From: Vibrio aphrogenes
GTDB lineage: Bacteria > Pseudomonadota > Gammaproteobacteria > Enterobacterales > Vibrionaceae
Assembly (NCBI RefSeq): GCF_002157735.2
Contig: NZ_AP018689.1
Span: 186,001 to 250,000, forward strand
DNA length: 64,000 nt
Direction: 5' to 3'
In this document: in pieces, positions 29,815 through 39,325 of the stretch
How positions within the stretch are numbered: position 1 is the first letter of the stretch
Layout of the letters: each line of letters begins with the position of its first letter
Notes under the pieces: generated by a model
The model's input: the letters and a program-made list of their open reading frames with translations, nothing else
Told to the model about the DNA's origin: nothing
Database searches by the model: none
Translations under genes and position numbers: made by a program

Positions 29815-30594
29815 ATGAGCATTAATCCATTAGTGATCAAATTAGGCGGCGCGGTGTTATCGGATACCGATACTTTGGCGTTGCTGTTTCAAACCATTTC
29901 CCATTATCAACAACAAGCTCAGCGCGCGGTCGTGATCGTGCACGGTGGCGGCTATTTAGTCGATGAGCTTATGGACAAACTCCAACTGGAAACGGTTAAA
30001 AAAAATGGCTTACGTGTGACTCCGTTTGAGCACATTAACTACATTAGCGGTGCACTGGCCGGAACGGCGAACAAATTACTGCAAGGTCAAGCGATGAAGC
30101 TGGGGCTGAATGCGGTGGGCTTAAGCTTGGCGGATGGTGGATTGTGTCAGGTGACGCAACTGTCACAAGACTTAGGCGCAGTTGGGGAAGCGAAGGCTGG
30201 AGAGGCGAGCGTGCTTAAGGCGATTTTAAGTACAGGGGCGCTGCCGATCATTAGCTCAATTGGCCTGACAAAAGAAGGGCAATTGATGAACGTGAATGCT
30301 GACCAAGCGGCGGTTGCGGTGGCGACAGCGTTAGATGCGGAACTGGCATTATTGTCTGATGTGTCAGGGGTATTGGATGCAAAAAAACAATTGATCGCTC
30401 AACTGGATCAAAACATGGCGGATCAATTGATCGCACAAGGCGTGATTACCGACGGCATGATCGTCAAAGTCCAAGCTGCATTAGACGCTGCAAAACAATT
30501 AGGCCGCGCCATTGAAGTGGCTGGCTGGAAAGAGCCGCAAAAATTAACACAGCTCTTAGCGGGCAATAGCATCGGAACTCGCTTTTTGCCTTAG
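29815..30594 (+). CDS. argB: Acetylglutamate kinase
   Basis: Amino-acid kinase phosphorylating N-acetylglutamate. 259 aa (E. coli 257). Visible motifs are VIKLGGAVL (residues 7-15), [11 protein letters not shown] near 43-53 and [12 protein letters not shown] near 160. This is the short form without the N-terminal helix of arginine-inhibited kinases, so feedback control probably acts elsewhere. It lies nine bases after argC. Confidence 0.97.
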
Positions 30595-30701
30595 TGGCGA
30601 GAAGCATTATTAATTATCCACGGATTAACGCTAATACAAACTAACGCTTAACCGCGTGCGTGATTCCAAGGAAGGCAAAATCAATATTTGGGAGAAGTAC
30701 A

Positions 30702-31934
30702 ATGAGTATATTAAGCGTTGATAAATCAAGTGTTAACAAGGTTGTCGTGGCGTATTCGGGAGGCTTAGACACCTCGGTTATCATTCCGTGGTTAAAAGAA
30801 AACTACGAATGTGAAGTGGTGGCGTTTGTGGCCGATGTTGGTCAAGGTGAAGAAGAGTTAGTCGGCATTAAAGAAAAAGCCATCGCCTCTGGTGCCTCTG
30901 AGTGTTATATCGCAGACCTAAAAGAAGAAATGGTCGCTGACTATATTTACCCAACCCTAAAAACAGGCGCTTTGTATGAAGGTAAATATCTATTAGGCAC
31001 CTCAATGGCTCGTCCTATTATTGCTAAAGCGCAAGTTGAAGTAGCACGTAAAGTTGGGGCTGATGCTTTGTGTCACGGCTGTACCGGTAAAGGGAATGAC
31101 CAAGTCCGTTTTGAAGGTGCGTTTGCTGCGCTTGCCCCAGATTTGCATGTGATTGCACCGTGGCGTGAATGGGATTTAGTAAGCCGTGAAGAATGTTTAG
31201 ATTACCTAGCGGAGCGTAATATTCCGTGTACCGCTTCTTTGACTAAAATCTACTCGCGTGATGCGAACGCATGGCACATTTCAACCGAAGGTGGCGTGCT
31301 AGAAAATACTTGGAATGCGCCGAATGAAGATTGTTGGGTATGGACGGTCGATCCGGAGCAAGCGCCCAATGAAGCGGAATACGTAACATTAAAAGTAGAA
31401 AAAGGCGCGGTTGTTGCCGTTGATGGCCAAGCGCTTTCTCCGTATCAAACGCTGGTAGCCTTAAATGAGAAGGGAGCCAAACACGGAGTTGGTCGTATAG
31501 ATATCGTGGAAAACCGTTTGGTTGGCATGAAGTCTCGTGGTTGTTATGAAACTCCGGGAGGCACCATCATGATGGAAGCGTTGCGCGCAGTTGAACAACT
31601 GGTATTGGATAAAGCCTCTTTTGAGTTCCGTGAAGAATTAGGGGTGAAAGCATCGCACCTTGTTTATGATGGCCGTTGGTTCACTCCTTTATGTAAATCA
31701 CTACTTGCTGCGACCGAAACCTTGGCGCAAGATGTGAATGGTGAAGTGGTGGTTAAGCTTTATAAAGGTCAAGCTACGGTGACGCAAAAACGTTCTGATA
31801 ACAGCTTATATTCAGAAGAGTTTGCGACCTTCGGTGCCGATGAAGTTTACGACCAAAGCCATGCGGGTGGATTTATTCGTTTGTACTCACTAGCAAGCCG
31901 TATTCGTGCGTTGAACGAAGCGAAGAAGAAATAA
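30702..31934 (+). CDS. argG: Argininosuccinate synthase
   Basis: Joins citrulline and aspartate with ATP. ATG at 30702 has GGGAGAAG upstream, and the upstream in-frame GTG (30660) is not needed. The ATP loop AYSGGLDTS lies at residues 15-23. Also visible are [12 protein letters not shown] near 90-101, [13 protein letters not shown] near 121-133 and [11 protein letters not shown]. 410 aa is the type I bacterial length. It lies 107 bases after argB and is followed by a CTAG-rich intergenic element before argHA. Confidence 0.97.
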
Positions 31935-31941
31935 AAAAGAA

Positions 31942-34001
<2,060 letters not shown>

Positions 34002-34106
34002 GCAAAAGAAATAATGCAATGAAGGGTTGAGTCGTTGGAACTTTATTTTTAGTTAAGCGTCTTAACAGTACACTGCTTTTTCTTAATTTGAATCTCCTTA
34101 AGATGG

Positions 34107-34256
34107 TTAAGAACGCCCCGTTTCGGTTTCGATGCGGGGTTTTTTGTTGCCATCATTTTCACTCCAATAATAGTGAGTGTCATGCTCCCCACTAAAATAA
34201 AGAGCTGCGTAAAAGCCTTCCTGTATTAAGCGCATATTATGGATAAATGTTTTCAT
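34107..34256 (-). CDS. Small hypothetical protein, 49 aa
   Basis: A short frame on the minus strand opening MKTFIHNMRLIQEGFYAALY and ending in TAA at 34107. It has a good ribosome site (AGAGG six bases before ATG) and a balanced, protein-like composition rich in aromatic residues, but I do not recognise a family. Its last dozen codons overlap the argHA terminator hairpin on the other strand. A minus-strand terminator lies 25 bases before its start, so it needs readthrough or its own promoter. It could be a chance frame. Confidence 0.42.
   Translation of the reverse strand: MKTFIHNMRLIQEGFYAALYFSGEHDTHYYWSENDGNKKPRIETETGRS
34111..34146 (+). terminator. Intrinsic terminator after argHA
   Basis: CCCCG (34116-34120) pairs with CGGGG (34135-34139), with a 14-nt loop and six T residues after it. 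The core stem is short (5 bp). Confidence 0.7.
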
Positions 34257-34280
34257 TGTGACCTCTTTGGGAGTGATGAG

Positions 34281-34309
34281 AAAAAAAAAGAGGCCAAAAG
34301 GGTGGCCTC
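34281..34309 (-). terminator. Intrinsic terminator on the minus strand upstream of the small ORF
   Basis: GAGGCC (34290-34295) pairs with GGCCTC (34304-34309). On the minus strand it is followed by nine T residues. No recognised gene lies between it and oxyR, so it implies a short transcript. Confidence 0.8.
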
Positions 34310-34395
34310 AAAGCAGTCGAGTGCGCGACTTTGTTGCATCAACAATAAGGTTAGGTGAGTAACCATTAAGCTGATTGAAGAGTTTTGATCCTAAT
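34281..34395 (-). ncRNA. Candidate OxyS-like small RNA divergent from oxyR
   Basis: The minus strand from about 34395 to 34281 would give an RNA of about 115 nt. It starts below an OxyR site and ends in an intrinsic terminator: GAGGCC / GGCCTC with an 8-nt loop, then nine T residues. Other stems are CCATTA / TAATGG near the 5' end and AGTCG / CGACT in the middle. E. coli OxyS (109 nt) has the same position, length and three-stem layout. A possible -10 is CATATT (34402-34407). There is no sequence match to OxyS that I can assert, so this is an inference from layout. Confidence 0.5.
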
Positions 34396-34430
34396 GGCTT
34401 TAATATGGACAAAAAGCTTTGATAGCTCCA

Positions 34431-34467
34431 ATCATTTAGTGCTATTGTTTTGATAGTTTTTAACTAT
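34431..34467. promoter_or_regulatory. OxyR binding site between oxyR and the candidate sRNA
   Basis: The right half ATAGTTTTTAACTAT (34453-34467) fits the OxyR half-site ATAG-n-T-nnn-A-n-CTAT at every fixed position. The left half (34431-34445) ends in CTAT and lies exactly 7 bp away, the spacing of the full four-element site. It overlaps the oxyR promoter region, suggesting autoregulation and activation of the divergent transcript. Confidence 0.8.
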
Positions 34468-34478
34468 GGAGTGATAGC

Positions 34479-35369
34479 GTGAATATCCGTGACTTTGAAT
34501 ACTTGGTTGCTTTAGCCGAGCATAAACATTTTCGCAAAGCCGCAGAAGCTTGTTTTGTCAGTCAGCCTACTTTAAGTGGCCAGATTCGTAAGCTGGAAGA
34601 TGAACTCGGAACCTCGTTATTAGAACGCAGTAGCCGACGGGTATTATTTACCGATTCAGGGTTACAACTGGTCGCTCAAGCTAAGCGTGTTTTAGGCGAA
34701 GTGAAAACCTTCACTGAAATGGCAAGCTTGCAAGGTAAAGAAATGAGTGGCCCATTGCATATTGGTTTTATTCCAACCATTGGTCCGTATATCTTACCGT
34801 TAATAGTACAGCCGCTTAAAAAAGCATTTCCTGATTTAGAATTGTTTTTACACGAAGCTCAGACCAATCAATTGGTTCGTCAACTGGAAGAAGGACGAAT
34901 TGATTGCATTATTTTAGCCTCTGTTGCGGAAACCGAACCTTTTATTGAGTTGGATATGTTTGATGAGCCCCTCATGATGGCGGTGCCAGAGAATCATCCG
35001 TGGGCAGAAAAAACCGAATTGGATATGCATGAGCTGAAAGGACATACGGTCTTGTCTTTAGGAGATGGTCACTGTTTACGCGATCAAGCCTTGGGCTTTT
35101 GCTTTGCCGCAGGAGCTAGCGATGATGACCGCTTTAAAGCCACCAGTTTAGAAACTCTGCGTAATATGGTTGCCGCAGGGGGCGGAGTGACGTTACTGCC
35201 TAAATTATCTGTGCCGAAAGAGAAAGTAAAAGATGGCGTGAGTTATTTGAAGGCGGTCAATCCAACACCAAGTCGTAAAGTAGTGTTGGCTTATCGACCG
35301 GGCTCACCATTACGTAAACGTTTTGAACAGCTTGCTGACTTTGTGACTCAAACCGTTGCGATGGAATAA
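34479..35369 (+). CDS. oxyR: Hydrogen peroxide-inducible regulator OxyR
   Basis: LysR-family regulator that senses H2O2 by disulfide formation. The start is GTG with GGAG seven bases upstream, giving MNIRDFEYLVALAEHKHF, as in E. coli. The helix-turn-helix lies at about 18-37 (AAEACFVSQPTLSGQIRKLE). The two redox cysteines are C199 and C208 (DGHCLRDQALGFC), identical to E. coli numbering. 296 aa (E. coli 305); the difference is at the C-terminus. A terminator follows. Confidence 0.97.
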   Translation: MNIRDFEYLVALAEHKHFRKAAEACFVSQPTLSGQIRKLEDELGTSLLERSSRRVLFTDSGLQLVAQAKRVLGEVKTFTEMASLQGKEMSGPLHIGFIPTIGPYILPLIVQPLKKAFPDLELFLHEAQTNQLVRQLEEGRIDCIILASVAETEPFIELDMFDEPLMMAVPENHPWAEKTELDMHELKGHTVLSLGDGHCLRDQALGFCFAAGASDDDRFKATSLETLRNMVAAGGGVTLLPKLSVPKEKVKDGVSYLKAVNPTPSRKVVLAYRPGSPLRKRFEQLADFVTQTVAME

Positions 35370-35415
35370 TGATAATTAGAGACAAATTCAGTTGTTAGTG
35401 AGTGAAAACAGAGAG

Positions 35416-35443
35416 AAAAAAGAGGCCAGTGGCCTCTTTTTTA
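35416..35443. terminator. Bidirectional terminator between oxyR and mrcA
   Basis: AAAAAAGAGGCC (35416-35427) and GGCCTCTTTTTT around a 3-nt loop. Convergent genes on both sides can use it. Confidence 0.9.
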
Positions 35444-35468
35444 TTGGTAGGATTGATACATAACAGAC

Positions 35469-38039
35469 TTAGAATAAGCTATCGCCATCTTCATCTTCTG
35501 TATATAAATCCGTGCCTTTATCATCAGAGATATATTCGGTTGGTTCTGTACCCGCTTTAAAGTATTCCCACATTGAGGAATCATCATTTTTACGAGTTAA
35601 CAGCCCTGAATCACGGTCGATACGGACACGAATAATACCCGCAGGTAGTTGAGTTTCTTGCTCTGGCACATTTTTTAGCGCCACTTTCATGAAGTCTACC
35701 CAAGCCGGTTGCGCGGTTGTTGCTCCAGATTCTCCACCGTTATATTGCTCTTTACGGGTAAAGTTTGCATTGGCGGCAGTGTAACCGAGTGGGCGGTTAG
35801 CTTGGTCAAATCCGACCCAAGTGGTGGCTACAATTCCGGGAGCATAACCATTAAACCAAGTATCGACAGAGTCATTGGTGGTACCGGTTTTACCGCCGAT
35901 GTCACGACGTTTTAAAACTTGTCCACGCCAGCCGGTGCCATTCCAACCTGTGCCCTTACTCCAGACGCCACCACCCCAAATATTGCTGTACATCATTTCA
36001 CGCACTAAGAACGCGGTTTGTTCGGAAATGACTTTTTCAGCATGTTTTGGCATTTCTTCTGTGCCTTTATCATCCACCACAATAGGCTGTTGCGAGCATT
36101 GGGTATCGCATACTGTGGTTGGGTTTGAGCGGTATAATAAGTTGCCATAAGGATCATTAACATGATCAATATAGTAAGGCTCGACGTAGTAACCACCGTT
36201 GGCGAACACCGAAATACCTTGTGCCATTTGCATTGGTGTTAAACTACCAGCCCCTAGAGCTATGGTTTCTGAGTGTGGCAGCTTTTCCGGGTCAAAACCA
36301 AAACGAGGTAGGTAATCGAGTACATTATCTAAGCCAACTCGTCTGAGGGTACGTACCGCCATAACGTTCTTCGATTGTGCTAGGCCGCGGCGCAGCATTG
36401 TCGGTCCAAGGTACACTGGTGGCGAGTTTTTCGGACGCCATGCTGTGCCTTGCCCCTGATCCCATTGGTTGATCGGCGCATCGTTAATTAAGGTCGCTAG
36501 AGTTAAACCTTTATCAATTGCGGCAGAATAAATAAATGGCTTGATACTTGAACCTACTTGACGCTCTGCCATTGTGGCGCGGTCAAACTTACTGTGGACA
36601 AAGTTAAAACCACCCACCAGAGAGAGCACCGCACCATCTTCAGGGTTGAGTGCGACAAAGGCGGTGTTCACAATCGGCACTTGGCTGAGTTGCCAAGACA
36701 CTTTATCTAAAGGATCGATACCTTGTTCATCTTCGTCCACATCTTGTTTCATTAAGGTATTTTCGGTTTCTTCTACAGCTGGTTTTTCCTGTAAAACTCC
36801 CATAGGACGAACCCAGATTTGCTGACCAACTTCAAGCATATCTGACGCTTTACTTGGTGCAGGACCTTGACGTTTGTCATTGTAATATTTACGAGCCCAT
36901 TTCAAGCCATCCCATTCGATGGTTTGTTCACCACGGTTTTTGATATACACCGTCGCGGAGCGTTGCGCAATGCTGGTCACCAAGGCAGGATGAATTAACC
37001 CAAAAGTCGGTTTGTTTTTGAGGTATTTATCCATTTGTTCTTGGGTAAATGCTTTGTCCGTTGGTTTCCAAGCGATGGCTTCAGGGCCACGATAACCGTG
37101 ACGCTCATCGTAATTTAATAGGTTACCAATGGCGGCTTCGTTGGCGGCTTCTTGTAAGTCAGATTTAACGGATGTGTAGATTTGTATACCGGAGCTGTAA
37201 GCCTCTTCACCGTAGCGTTTAACTGCCCAACCACGTGCTAACTCAGCAACATAGGGAGCATTCACTTCAATATGAGCGCCGTGGTATTTACCATCAATCG
37301 GTTCGGCATCGGCAGCATCAAATTCTTGTTGCGTGATGTATTTCTCTTCGAGCATACGCAGTAGTACCACATGGCGACGAGTTTTAGCGCGATCAATTGA
37401 GTAAATCGGGTTCATGGTAGAAGGGGCTTTCGGTAAACCTGCGATAATCGCCATTTCACCTAAAGTTAAATCTTTCGGCTCTTTACCAAAATAAGTTAAC
37501 GAGGCTGCACCCACACCATAAGAGCGATAACCCAAATAAATCTTATTTAGATAGAGCTCTAAAATTTCTTGTTTATTCAACACTTGTTCAATGTGCAGTG
37601 CGATAAAAATTTCTTTAATTTTACGCATAATCTTCTTGTCATTGGATAAGAAGAAGTTACGAGCTAGTTGCTGAGTAATGGTACTTGCACCTTGTTTTGC
37701 TGAACCTGATATCGCAACTACCACGGCAGCACGTACGATACCAATGGGATCGATACCGTAGTGTTGATAGTAACGACTGTCTTCGGTCGCAATAAACGCT
37801 TCCTGCATTTTTAGCGGAATATCATCAAGTTTAAGAGGGATACGTCGTTTTTCACCAAATTGGGCGATTAACTTTCCATCTTGACTGAAAACTTGCATTG
37901 GCGTTTGCAGTTGTACGTTCTTTAAGGTTGCAACGTCTGGGAGCTGTGGTTTTAGGTAGTAATAGAACCCAAAAATTGTAGTCACTCCAAGAATCATGCA
38001 AACAAATGAAAATATGAGCAATGGCTTTATGAACTTCAC
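35469..38039 (-). CDS. mrcA: Penicillin-binding protein 1A
   Basis: Bifunctional peptidoglycan synthase of the inner membrane: glycosyltransferase plus transpeptidase. A GTG at 38039 follows AGGGA and gives VKFIKPLLIFSF, which aligns with E. coli MKFVKYFLILAV; the longer frame adds 14 residues. One membrane anchor lies at about 7-30. The glycosyltransferase 51 domain includes TEDSRYYQHYGIDPIGI and QGASTITQQLARN. The transpeptidase has SSIKPF (SxxK) and KTGTTND (KTG). 856 aa (E. coli 850). It is divergent from pilM, the usual Vibrio arrangement. Confidence 0.97.
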   Translation of the reverse strand: MKFIKPLLIFSFVCMILGVTTIFGFYYYLKPQLPDVATLKNVQLQTPMQVFSQDGKLIAQFGEKRRIPLKLDDIPLKMQEAFIATEDSRYYQHYGIDPIGIVRAAVVVAISGSAKQGASTITQQLARNFFLSNDKKIMRKIKEIFIALHIEQVLNKQEILELYLNKIYLGYRSYGVGAASLTYFGKEPKDLTLGEMAIIAGLPKAPSTMNPIYSIDRAKTRRHVVLLRMLEEKYITQQEFDAADAEPIDGKYHGAHIEVNAPYVAELARGWAVKRYGEEAYSSGIQIYTSVKSDLQEAANEAAIGNLLNYDERHGYRGPEAIAWKPTDKAFTQEQMDKYLKNKPTFGLIHPALVTSIAQRSATVYIKNRGEQTIEWDGLKWARKYYNDKRQGPAPSKASDMLEVGQQIWVRPMGVLQEKPAVEETENTLMKQDVDEDEQGIDPLDKVSWQLSQVPIVNTAFVALNPEDGAVLSLVGGFNFVHSKFDRATMAERQVGSSIKPFIYSAAIDKGLTLATLINDAPINQWDQGQGTAWRPKNSPPVYLGPTMLRRGLAQSKNVMAVRTLRRVGLDNVLDYLPRFGFDPEKLPHSETIALGAGSLTPMQMAQGISVFANGGYYVEPYYIDHVNDPYGNLLYRSNPTTVCDTQCSQQPIVVDDKGTEEMPKHAEKVISEQTAFLVREMMYSNIWGGGVWSKGTGWNGTGWRGQVLKRRDIGGKTGTTNDSVDTWFNGYAPGIVATTWVGFDQANRPLGYTAANANFTRKEQYNGGESGATTAQPAWVDFMKVALKNVPEQETQLPAGIIRVRIDRDSGLLTRKNDDSSMWEYFKAGTEPTEYISDDKGTDLYTEDEDGDSLF

Positions 38040-38302
38040 CGGATATTCCCTGATTGAGTAAGGATGTGTCGATATAAACACCTGTACAGTAGGTGCTCAT
38101 ATTAGCATATCGTTAAAAAAATGCGTTCTTAACTTTATATTTCATTGGTTCAAAAAAGAGGTCATTCACAACGGAGTGACATCCATAAGTGTATCCATGT
38201 ATTTCGTTAATTTCTTAAGCAAATTCATTGATCATCGATATGTGTGTGTTTGTTAATCCAACCATTATGGAGGTGATCAGCCTCTGACTGGAGCCGAGTG
38301 TT

Positions 38303-39325
38303 ATGGGTAAATCTTTTGTTACGGGTATTGATATCGGTCATCACAGTATAAAAGCTGTGGTTGTTAAGCCCGTTGGAGTGCAGTTTGAACTGGTGACTTA
38401 TGCCGAAGTACCAGTAAGCGGCGCTATTTTTTCAGATAACCATACGGTGAATCATCAAGAAATTGTCAAAAATCTAAAACAGCTCAAAAAACAGCTTCCG
38501 ATGAGAGCCAAAAAAGTGGTGTTGGCGGTGCCCGATAGTGCCGTGATCAGTAAATTGTTGCATATCGATAGTGAACTTGAGGAGCGCGAAAAAGAATTTG
38601 CGCTTTATCAGTTGTTTGCTCAACAGTCGCCATTTCCCATCGAAGAGTTGAGCTTAGATTATGTCAAGCTTGAACCGGAGCGGGCAACGGTCTCTAGCAC
38701 GAGCACTTATCAAGTCTATGCTACCCGCAAAGAGGTAATTGAAAGTCGCGTTGAGGTCATCAAAAAATCGGGCTTTACTCCATGGGTGATGGATTTACAA
38801 GCGCACGGATTATTACGAGTGTGGCAAATGGCTTGCCAAGAACAAGCCGAAAAAGCCAATGGCTTATTGGTTGATATCGGTCAAAGCCAAACCTCTATCT
38901 GTATTTTGCCGGCAGGGCGTCCCGCTTATTACAAAGATTTTCCCCTTGGCACGCAGCAGCTGCCTTCCTCGTTAACTACATCACAAGCGGTTTCCGAGCC
39001 GAGTTTTACTTTGTCATTGGAACCACCTGAGTCCTTTATTGCTGAATTAGCGGAGCGCTTAACTCGGCAATTGAGTTTGTATGCTTCGGTAAACCAGCAA
39101 CATCAGATTGACGGGGTGTGGCTGACCGGTGGAGGAGCGACCTTGCTTGGGCTTGAAGAATCACTCTCTACTAAATTGAATTTGCCAGTGGCGCGCTTTA
39201 ACCCTTTTGCTCGCTTACAAGGCAAGTTGACCATTCCTGAGCGTATGGAACCTGGTACTTTTGGGGTTGCTGTGGGCTTAGCACTCAAAGGGTTGCAGTG
39301 GCAAGGAGGAAAACATGTTGCATGA
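38303..39325 (+). CDS. pilM: Type IV pilus inner-membrane assembly protein PilM
   Basis: Actin-like cytoplasmic ATP-binding protein that binds the PilN tail and anchors the pilus alignment complex. 340 aa, with the fold signature GIDIGHHSIKAVVV near residue 8, DIGQSQTSICIL near 192 and LTGGGATLLG near 275. GGAG precedes the ATG. It overlaps pilN by 11 bases. It is the first gene of the pilMNOPQ operon, required for pilus extrusion and natural DNA uptake in Vibrio. Confidence 0.95.
   Translation: MGKSFVTGIDIGHHSIKAVVVKPVGVQFELVTYAEVPVSGAIFSDNHTVNHQEIVKNLKQLKKQLPMRAKKVVLAVPDSAVISKLLHIDSELEEREKEFALYQLFAQQSPFPIEELSLDYVKLEPERATVSSTSTYQVYATRKEVIESRVEVIKKSGFTPWVMDLQAHGLLRVWQMACQEQAEKANGLLVDIGQSQTSICILPAGRPAYYKDFPLGTQQLPSSLTTSQAVSEPSFTLSLEPPESFIAELAERLTRQLSLYASVNQQHQIDGVWLTGGGATLLGLEESLSTKLNLPVARFNPFARLQGKLTIPERMEPGTFGVAVGLALKGLQWQGGKHVA

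Follow-up and report, generated by a model that had tools for sequence, protein, structure and literature searches.

Features between argH and oxyR

The window analyzed here, that is, the whole 64-kb stretch of V. aphrogenes DNA, contains at 34479–35369 (plus strand) the gene of the peroxide-sensing LysR-type regulator OxyR, identified by a score of 527.3 bits with the NCBIfam OxyR equivalog NF008361 (cut-off 329) and by the Pfam domains HTH_1 and LysR_substrate. An OxyR tetramer-type site is found at 34431–34467 on the minus strand. One half of this site, ATAGTTAAAAACTAT, is perfect (10/10 fixed positions), and the second half lies 7 bp away; together, they agree with the consensus used at 17/20 fixed positions, the top score of the window, the next best site elsewhere in the window reaching 13/20. 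The end of the site adjoins a poor −35 region, an arrangement that is expected of activated promoters, and a candidate −10 element, CATATT (34402–34407, minus strand), predicts a start of transcription near 34395. The promoter points away from oxyR, into a minus-strand stretch (34281–34395) that is predicted to yield a terminated RNA of approximately 115 nt, the 5′ end being a prediction. A preliminary description of this DNA had reported a half-site perfect at all fixed positions, with a second half 7 bp off, between oxyR and a minus-strand unit, and had called the −10 element weak. The ranking of the site and the identification of oxyR bear out the first of these statements, and we agree with the second.

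A feature absent from that description is a small ORF of 49 codons, belonging to no known family, at 34107–34256 on the same strand. It starts 24 nt past the T-tract of the predicted RNA and is preceded by the Shine–Dalgarno sequence AGAGGT (34261–34266, minus strand); a purine-rich sequence of this kind precedes the ORF in 7/7 genomes compared. Because the ORF and its Shine–Dalgarno sequence begin beyond the T-tract, the terminator separates the promoter from this gene.

Other elements of the window were observed alongside. The 3′ UTR of argH contains at 34065–34146 (plus strand) an element that starts with TACACTGCTTTTTCTTA and continues into a GC hairpin and T6; a close form, TACCACTGCTTTTTCTTAGAaGAATCTAAGA with terminator, was present in the covered part of 32 out of 80 named Vibrio oxyR loci, and in CK2-1 it is preceded by a different gene. 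This element, which had no Rfam match at E ≤ 5, is a candidate for a 3′ UTR-derived sRNA. At 37773–38002 (plus strand), antisense to a penicillin-binding protein gene, the asponA model (RF02812) scored 46 bits, below its gathering score of 113; this match is probably conserved coding sequence.

The promoter block and its usual gene, prxA

The OxyR site lies within a promoter block that was matched in 135/227 genomes (E ≤ 1e-3) and is conserved over 61 aligned loci out of the 80 named Vibrio loci, the remaining 19 not being anchored by the pattern. The consensus reads gATAGaaa..A.CTATCAAAACCATAaCAtcAAACGATTaGAgCTATCAAAg..TTT.Tt.aATAAT, and V. aphrogenes has CATATT in place, and in the register, of AATAAT. 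Behind the block, 66 of the 80 named loci carry prxA, which encodes a peroxiredoxin–glutaredoxin fusion; a locus in which the contig ends after the first 35 residues (L059) was counted with prxA, and one with just 508 bases upstream (L114) was counted without it. According to two V. cholerae studies, prxA is transcribed divergently from oxyR, is strongly induced by H2O2, and loses its expression when oxyR is deleted (PMC3534063), and its transcript rises more than 10-fold with H2O2 in RNA-seq (PMC5289545).

The nearest named relatives of the seaweed Vibrio V. aphrogenes belong to the Rumoiensis clade, and none of the nine Rumoiensis-type genomes searched, V. aphrogenes included, gave a prxA match at E ≤ 1e-10. 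The V. aphrogenes genome (3,375,144 bases, two contigs) contains only partial prxA matches of 32–34% at E ≤ 1e-3. A sister genome, G046, retains prxA (85% identity) behind the promoter block. In the tree, G046 clusters with V. hibernica and G194 (100/99), which implies either repeated loss of prxA or a separate origin of the 44-codon ORF found in the latter two genomes (see below). Judging from this distribution, the promoter is older than the V. aphrogenes RNA.

Outside the clade, ten further named loci also lack prxA at the locus, and their neighbors vary. In the prxA-less loci L061, L071, L072, L076, L078, and L097, the OxyR promoter block is followed by the gene of a small protein (KKIGKCQRCMDQLT...) that we take to be a cysteine-rich membrane-type protein. 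At L084 and L088, the convergent gene is presumably ridA-like. In V. mytili (L073, positions 1–210 upstream of oxyR), prxA is gone, the OxyR promoter block is kept, and no gene precedes the terminator shared with argH, so that a further RNA, independent of the first, may lie behind the promoter block there; a V. mytili contig (G019) gave only a 48% match to part of prxA.

Structure of the predicted RNA

Folding of the 115-nt strand gave three stems at −27.9 kcal/mol (z = −3.07; 2/200 shuffles as good), and the three-stem shape recurs in the close relative G091 (z = −3.57), so that the three stems thought possible from the sequence were recovered by folding. SL1 (34338–34375, minus strand) is not conserved in sequence, and its position in G091 is taken by a different hairpin. 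SL2 (34315–34330, minus strand; AGUCG-CGCACU-CGACU) is identical in stem and loop in G091, and CK2-1 and V. litoralis keep CGCACU and not the stem. The 3′ end is an intrinsic terminator (34281–34309, minus strand) with a 7-bp stem (34309–34290) and the nine T residues noted previously (34289–34281); it is kept in G091, CK2-1 (G197), and V. litoralis (G111) and absent in G014. A 20-nt core, CGCACTCGACTGCTTTGAGG (34306–34325, minus strand), lies within the SL2–terminator block and is a candidate seed or regulatory element. No competing antiterminator was apparent in the folds of V. aphrogenes and its relatives, and no Rfam riboswitch or leader matched at E ≤ 5 within 30000–39000.

Conservation among relatives

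Between V. aphrogenes and G091, the only close pair with the full 115-nt form, SL2 and the terminator are identical at 46 of 50 positions (three differences and one gap), compared with 52.6% identity at third positions of oxyR. The 5′ part of the leader has 33 identical, 20 different, and 17 gapped columns out of 70. In the small set of four genomes with the terminator, 30 of the 36 positions of the SL2–terminator block are invariant, loop and flank included. Of the stems whose conservation in relatives had been called for as a check, SL2 (identical in G091) and the terminator stood, and SL1 did not. Covariation is nearly nil: of the 15 pairs in the consensus fold of the two sequences, one has changes in both partners, and this fold does not recover SL1.

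CK2-1 and V. litoralis have a shorter leader of approximately 50 nt, in which the terminator is the only part that folds (z = −2.93 and a weak −1.88, respectively, the latter with 9/200 shuffles as good). The leaders of these two genomes are identical at 62/67 positions and their 3′ UTRs at 75/80; since the 3′ UTR is equally similar, this pair alone shows nothing special, and the case for conservation rests on the wider comparison. By that comparison, the predicted terminated RNA is itself conserved.

G014 lacks the terminator, and a GAGG ahead of its place serves as the Shine–Dalgarno sequence there; the core has diverged and is still recognizable. As G014 clusters with CK2-1 and V. litoralis (98/98) and thereby nests inside the five-genome clade (100/99), loss of the terminator in G014 is the simple reading.

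A 21-nt core pattern was matched in 9/227 genomes. The three matches without mismatch all lie at oxyR (V. aphrogenes, labeled G000, and G111 and G197); the other six have two mismatches, lie away from oxyR, and are about as many as expected by chance, a backwards control having matched two genomes. The G091 core at oxyR, longer by one T, escaped this pattern. That the core is conserved letter by letter suggests sequence-specific pairing, which would probably be in trans, because the stretch is kept where roughly half of the synonymous sites have changed, and because it comprises more than a hairpin.

Relation to OxyS

E. coli OxyS also lies between oxyR and argH, and the V. aphrogenes unit likewise points away from oxyR and follows an OxyR site. 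The OxyS covariance model (RF00035) had no match at E ≤ 5 within 30000–39000, and its best hit in the whole genome, away from this locus, scored 14 bits (E = 3.58), against a gathering score of 75 that was exceeded in 1/14 control genomes. On these searches of the locus and the genome, homology to OxyS was rejected; the preliminary description, too, had claimed no assertable sequence match. That the unit is an OxyS is thus not supported, although it may work like one. We found no report of an OxyS-like RNA in Vibrio, or of a small RNA of V. aphrogenes, among licensed PMC texts. What stands of the suggested OxyS-like regulatory RNA is the OxyR-type promoter and the conserved, terminated unit of approximately 115 nt; what is not supported is the kinship to OxyS, and, with a small gene behind the terminator, the notion of a stand-alone RNA is probably incomplete.

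The unit could still be a stand-alone, OxyS-like Hfq sRNA if the small ORF were irrelevant or not expressed from this promoter. The position, the size, the U9 tail, the OxyR-type promoter, and a conserved core, unpaired in CK2-1, all accord with such an RNA. We nevertheless regard it as distinctly unlikely, given an ORF that is under purifying selection and has ribosome-binding sites in seven genomes, and given that G014 lost the terminator and kept the ORF. With a small protein gene directly past the terminator, the RNA may instead be a leader or a two-output unit.

The small protein gene

Among the nine prxA-less genomes of the clade, V. aphrogenes, G091, G014, CK2-1, and V. litoralis carry an ORF of 35–49 codons at this place, facing away from oxyR. 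V. hibernica and G194 carry a 44-codon ORF whose relation to this family is uncertain; the 44-codon ORFs were in the profile used for database searches, so the E-values obtained are no proof of kinship. The small-protein search missed the ORFs of V. litoralis, V. hibernica, and G194, which were taken from the locus sequences, and a match in G204 was dismissed as chance since no strong oxyR match accompanied it. The small proteins have no Pfam match at cut-off. Protein databases yielded seven proteins, all of the small-protein kind and none with a Pfam domain (0/7). AlphaFold predicts a single helix (residues 2–31) with low confidence (mean pLDDT 65.4, pTM 0.31).

For five pairs, selection was assessed by comparison with a random redistribution of their changes. 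V. aphrogenes and G091 differ at the three codon positions by 6/5/16 (dN 0.19, dS 2.0; P = 0.0012). Over the first 22 codons, V. aphrogenes and G014 gave P = 0.0068, and for G014 and CK2-1, 0/5000 null draws were as extreme. The value for V. hibernica and G194 was P = 0.0066, and that for CK2-1 and V. litoralis, P = 0.0624, is not significant alone. The changes are mostly synonymous and, by this measure, the small ORF is under purifying selection on its amino acids. In V. aphrogenes, the stop codon of the relatives is lost and the ORF runs into the hairpin shared with argH.

That last feature would suit a decaying remnant, in which the promoter drifts after the loss of prxA and both RNA and ORF are passing leftovers. 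RNA and ORF are both missing from G063, whose promoter is degraded (CTATAAG), and from V. rumoiensis 1S-45, and the ten prxA-less loci outside the clade with their varied neighbors fit the same picture. We consider this very improbable in view of the selection on the ORF and of an SL2–terminator block strongly conserved at a saturated synonymous distance.

A greater concern is that the RNA is the by-product of an attenuator, that is, of a leader that limits the small protein in cis and has no targets in trans. An intrinsic terminator stands between the promoter and the ORF in four of the five nearest genomes (V. aphrogenes, G091, CK2-1, and V. litoralis), translation being inferred from selection. 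The ORF is the common denominator, being present in 5/5 of these genomes, the terminator-less G014 included, compared with 4/5 for the terminator. In CK2-1 and V. litoralis, the ORF starts about a dozen nucleotides past the T-tract and the terminator abuts the Shine–Dalgarno sequence, which leaves no space for a separate promoter, so that the ORF of these genomes depends on read-through. The core has no second copy or near-complement in the V. aphrogenes genome (≤3 mismatches of 20; one match for the backwards control), yet pairing between sRNAs and their targets is usually short and imperfect, and a missing near-complement does not exclude targets. Moreover, terminators conserve pairing and not letters, whereas here loop and flank belong to the 30/36 invariant positions, and no antiterminator is apparent in the folds. 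We view a purely cis-acting leader as somewhat unlikely.

Related candidates were rejected. A 37-codon upstream ORF (34366–34253) overlaps the small ORF by ATGA; it has no clear Shine–Dalgarno sequence and, by eye, no counterpart in G091, and leader-peptide attenuation by it was discarded. The core as a cis antisense to the start codon of the small ORF was likewise dropped, since, by eye, the CK2-1 sequence pairs partly and those of V. aphrogenes and V. litoralis do not.

A kept promoter with two predicted products

The explanation that we favor, with a probability of about 0.5, is that a prxA-type promoter was kept and that OxyR directs from it a terminated RNA of approximately 115 nt and, by read-through, a 49-residue microprotein. 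By analogy with V. cholerae prxA, OxyR oxidized by peroxide would activate the kept promoter. Transcription would start near 34395, and most polymerases would stop at the T-tract to give the RNA, whose CK2-1 and V. litoralis forms would measure approximately 50 nt; a minority would read past the tract, allowing translation of the microprotein. The terminated RNA may have a sequence-specific role through its core, pairing probably in trans or else engaging some other factor. The steps of this scheme read directly from the genomes are the promoter block, the missing prxA match in the clade, the SL2–terminator block, and the ORF under purifying selection.

A bolder version, which we offer tentatively, is that a clade of Vibrio, once prxA was lost, turned the vacated OxyR promoter into an analogue of OxyS by convergence. 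The products would be an RNA that is induced by peroxide and acts in trans and, by read-through, a helical microprotein that is likewise induced by peroxide and belongs to an undescribed family. If true, this would be a datable case of the origin of a regulatory RNA, in which an OxyR promoter loses its enzyme gene and the sequel becomes an RNA plus a microprotein, and an OxyS-like solution would have been reached independently of OxyS. The relatives provide natural variants, with the terminator present or absent, prxA retained, or everything lost. The locus also adds to this clade a small protein family without Pfam match and with a predicted link to peroxide.

Comparison with known systems

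The V. aphrogenes unit shares with the divergent oxyR–prxA pair of Vibrio (V. cholerae VC2637) the promoter block, the geometry of the site, and the place, and differs in that its clade has no prxA match and carries the RNA unit and the small ORF instead. Like transcription attenuators of 5′ leaders, it has a terminator between the promoter and the Shine–Dalgarno sequence of the only downstream ORF; unlike them, it has no apparent antiterminator, conserved leader peptide, known ligand, or Rfam riboswitch or leader match (E ≤ 5, 30000–39000). With E. coli OxyS (RF00035), it has in common the divergence from oxyR, a similar length, hairpins, a U-rich terminator, and predicted control by OxyR, whereas it does not match that family, its promoter block is shared with the prxA gene of other vibrios, and its terminator is followed by the gene of a small protein. 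In terms of these comparisons, the unit is apparently an OxyR-divergent RNA at the place of OxyS, of separate origin and combined with a microprotein.
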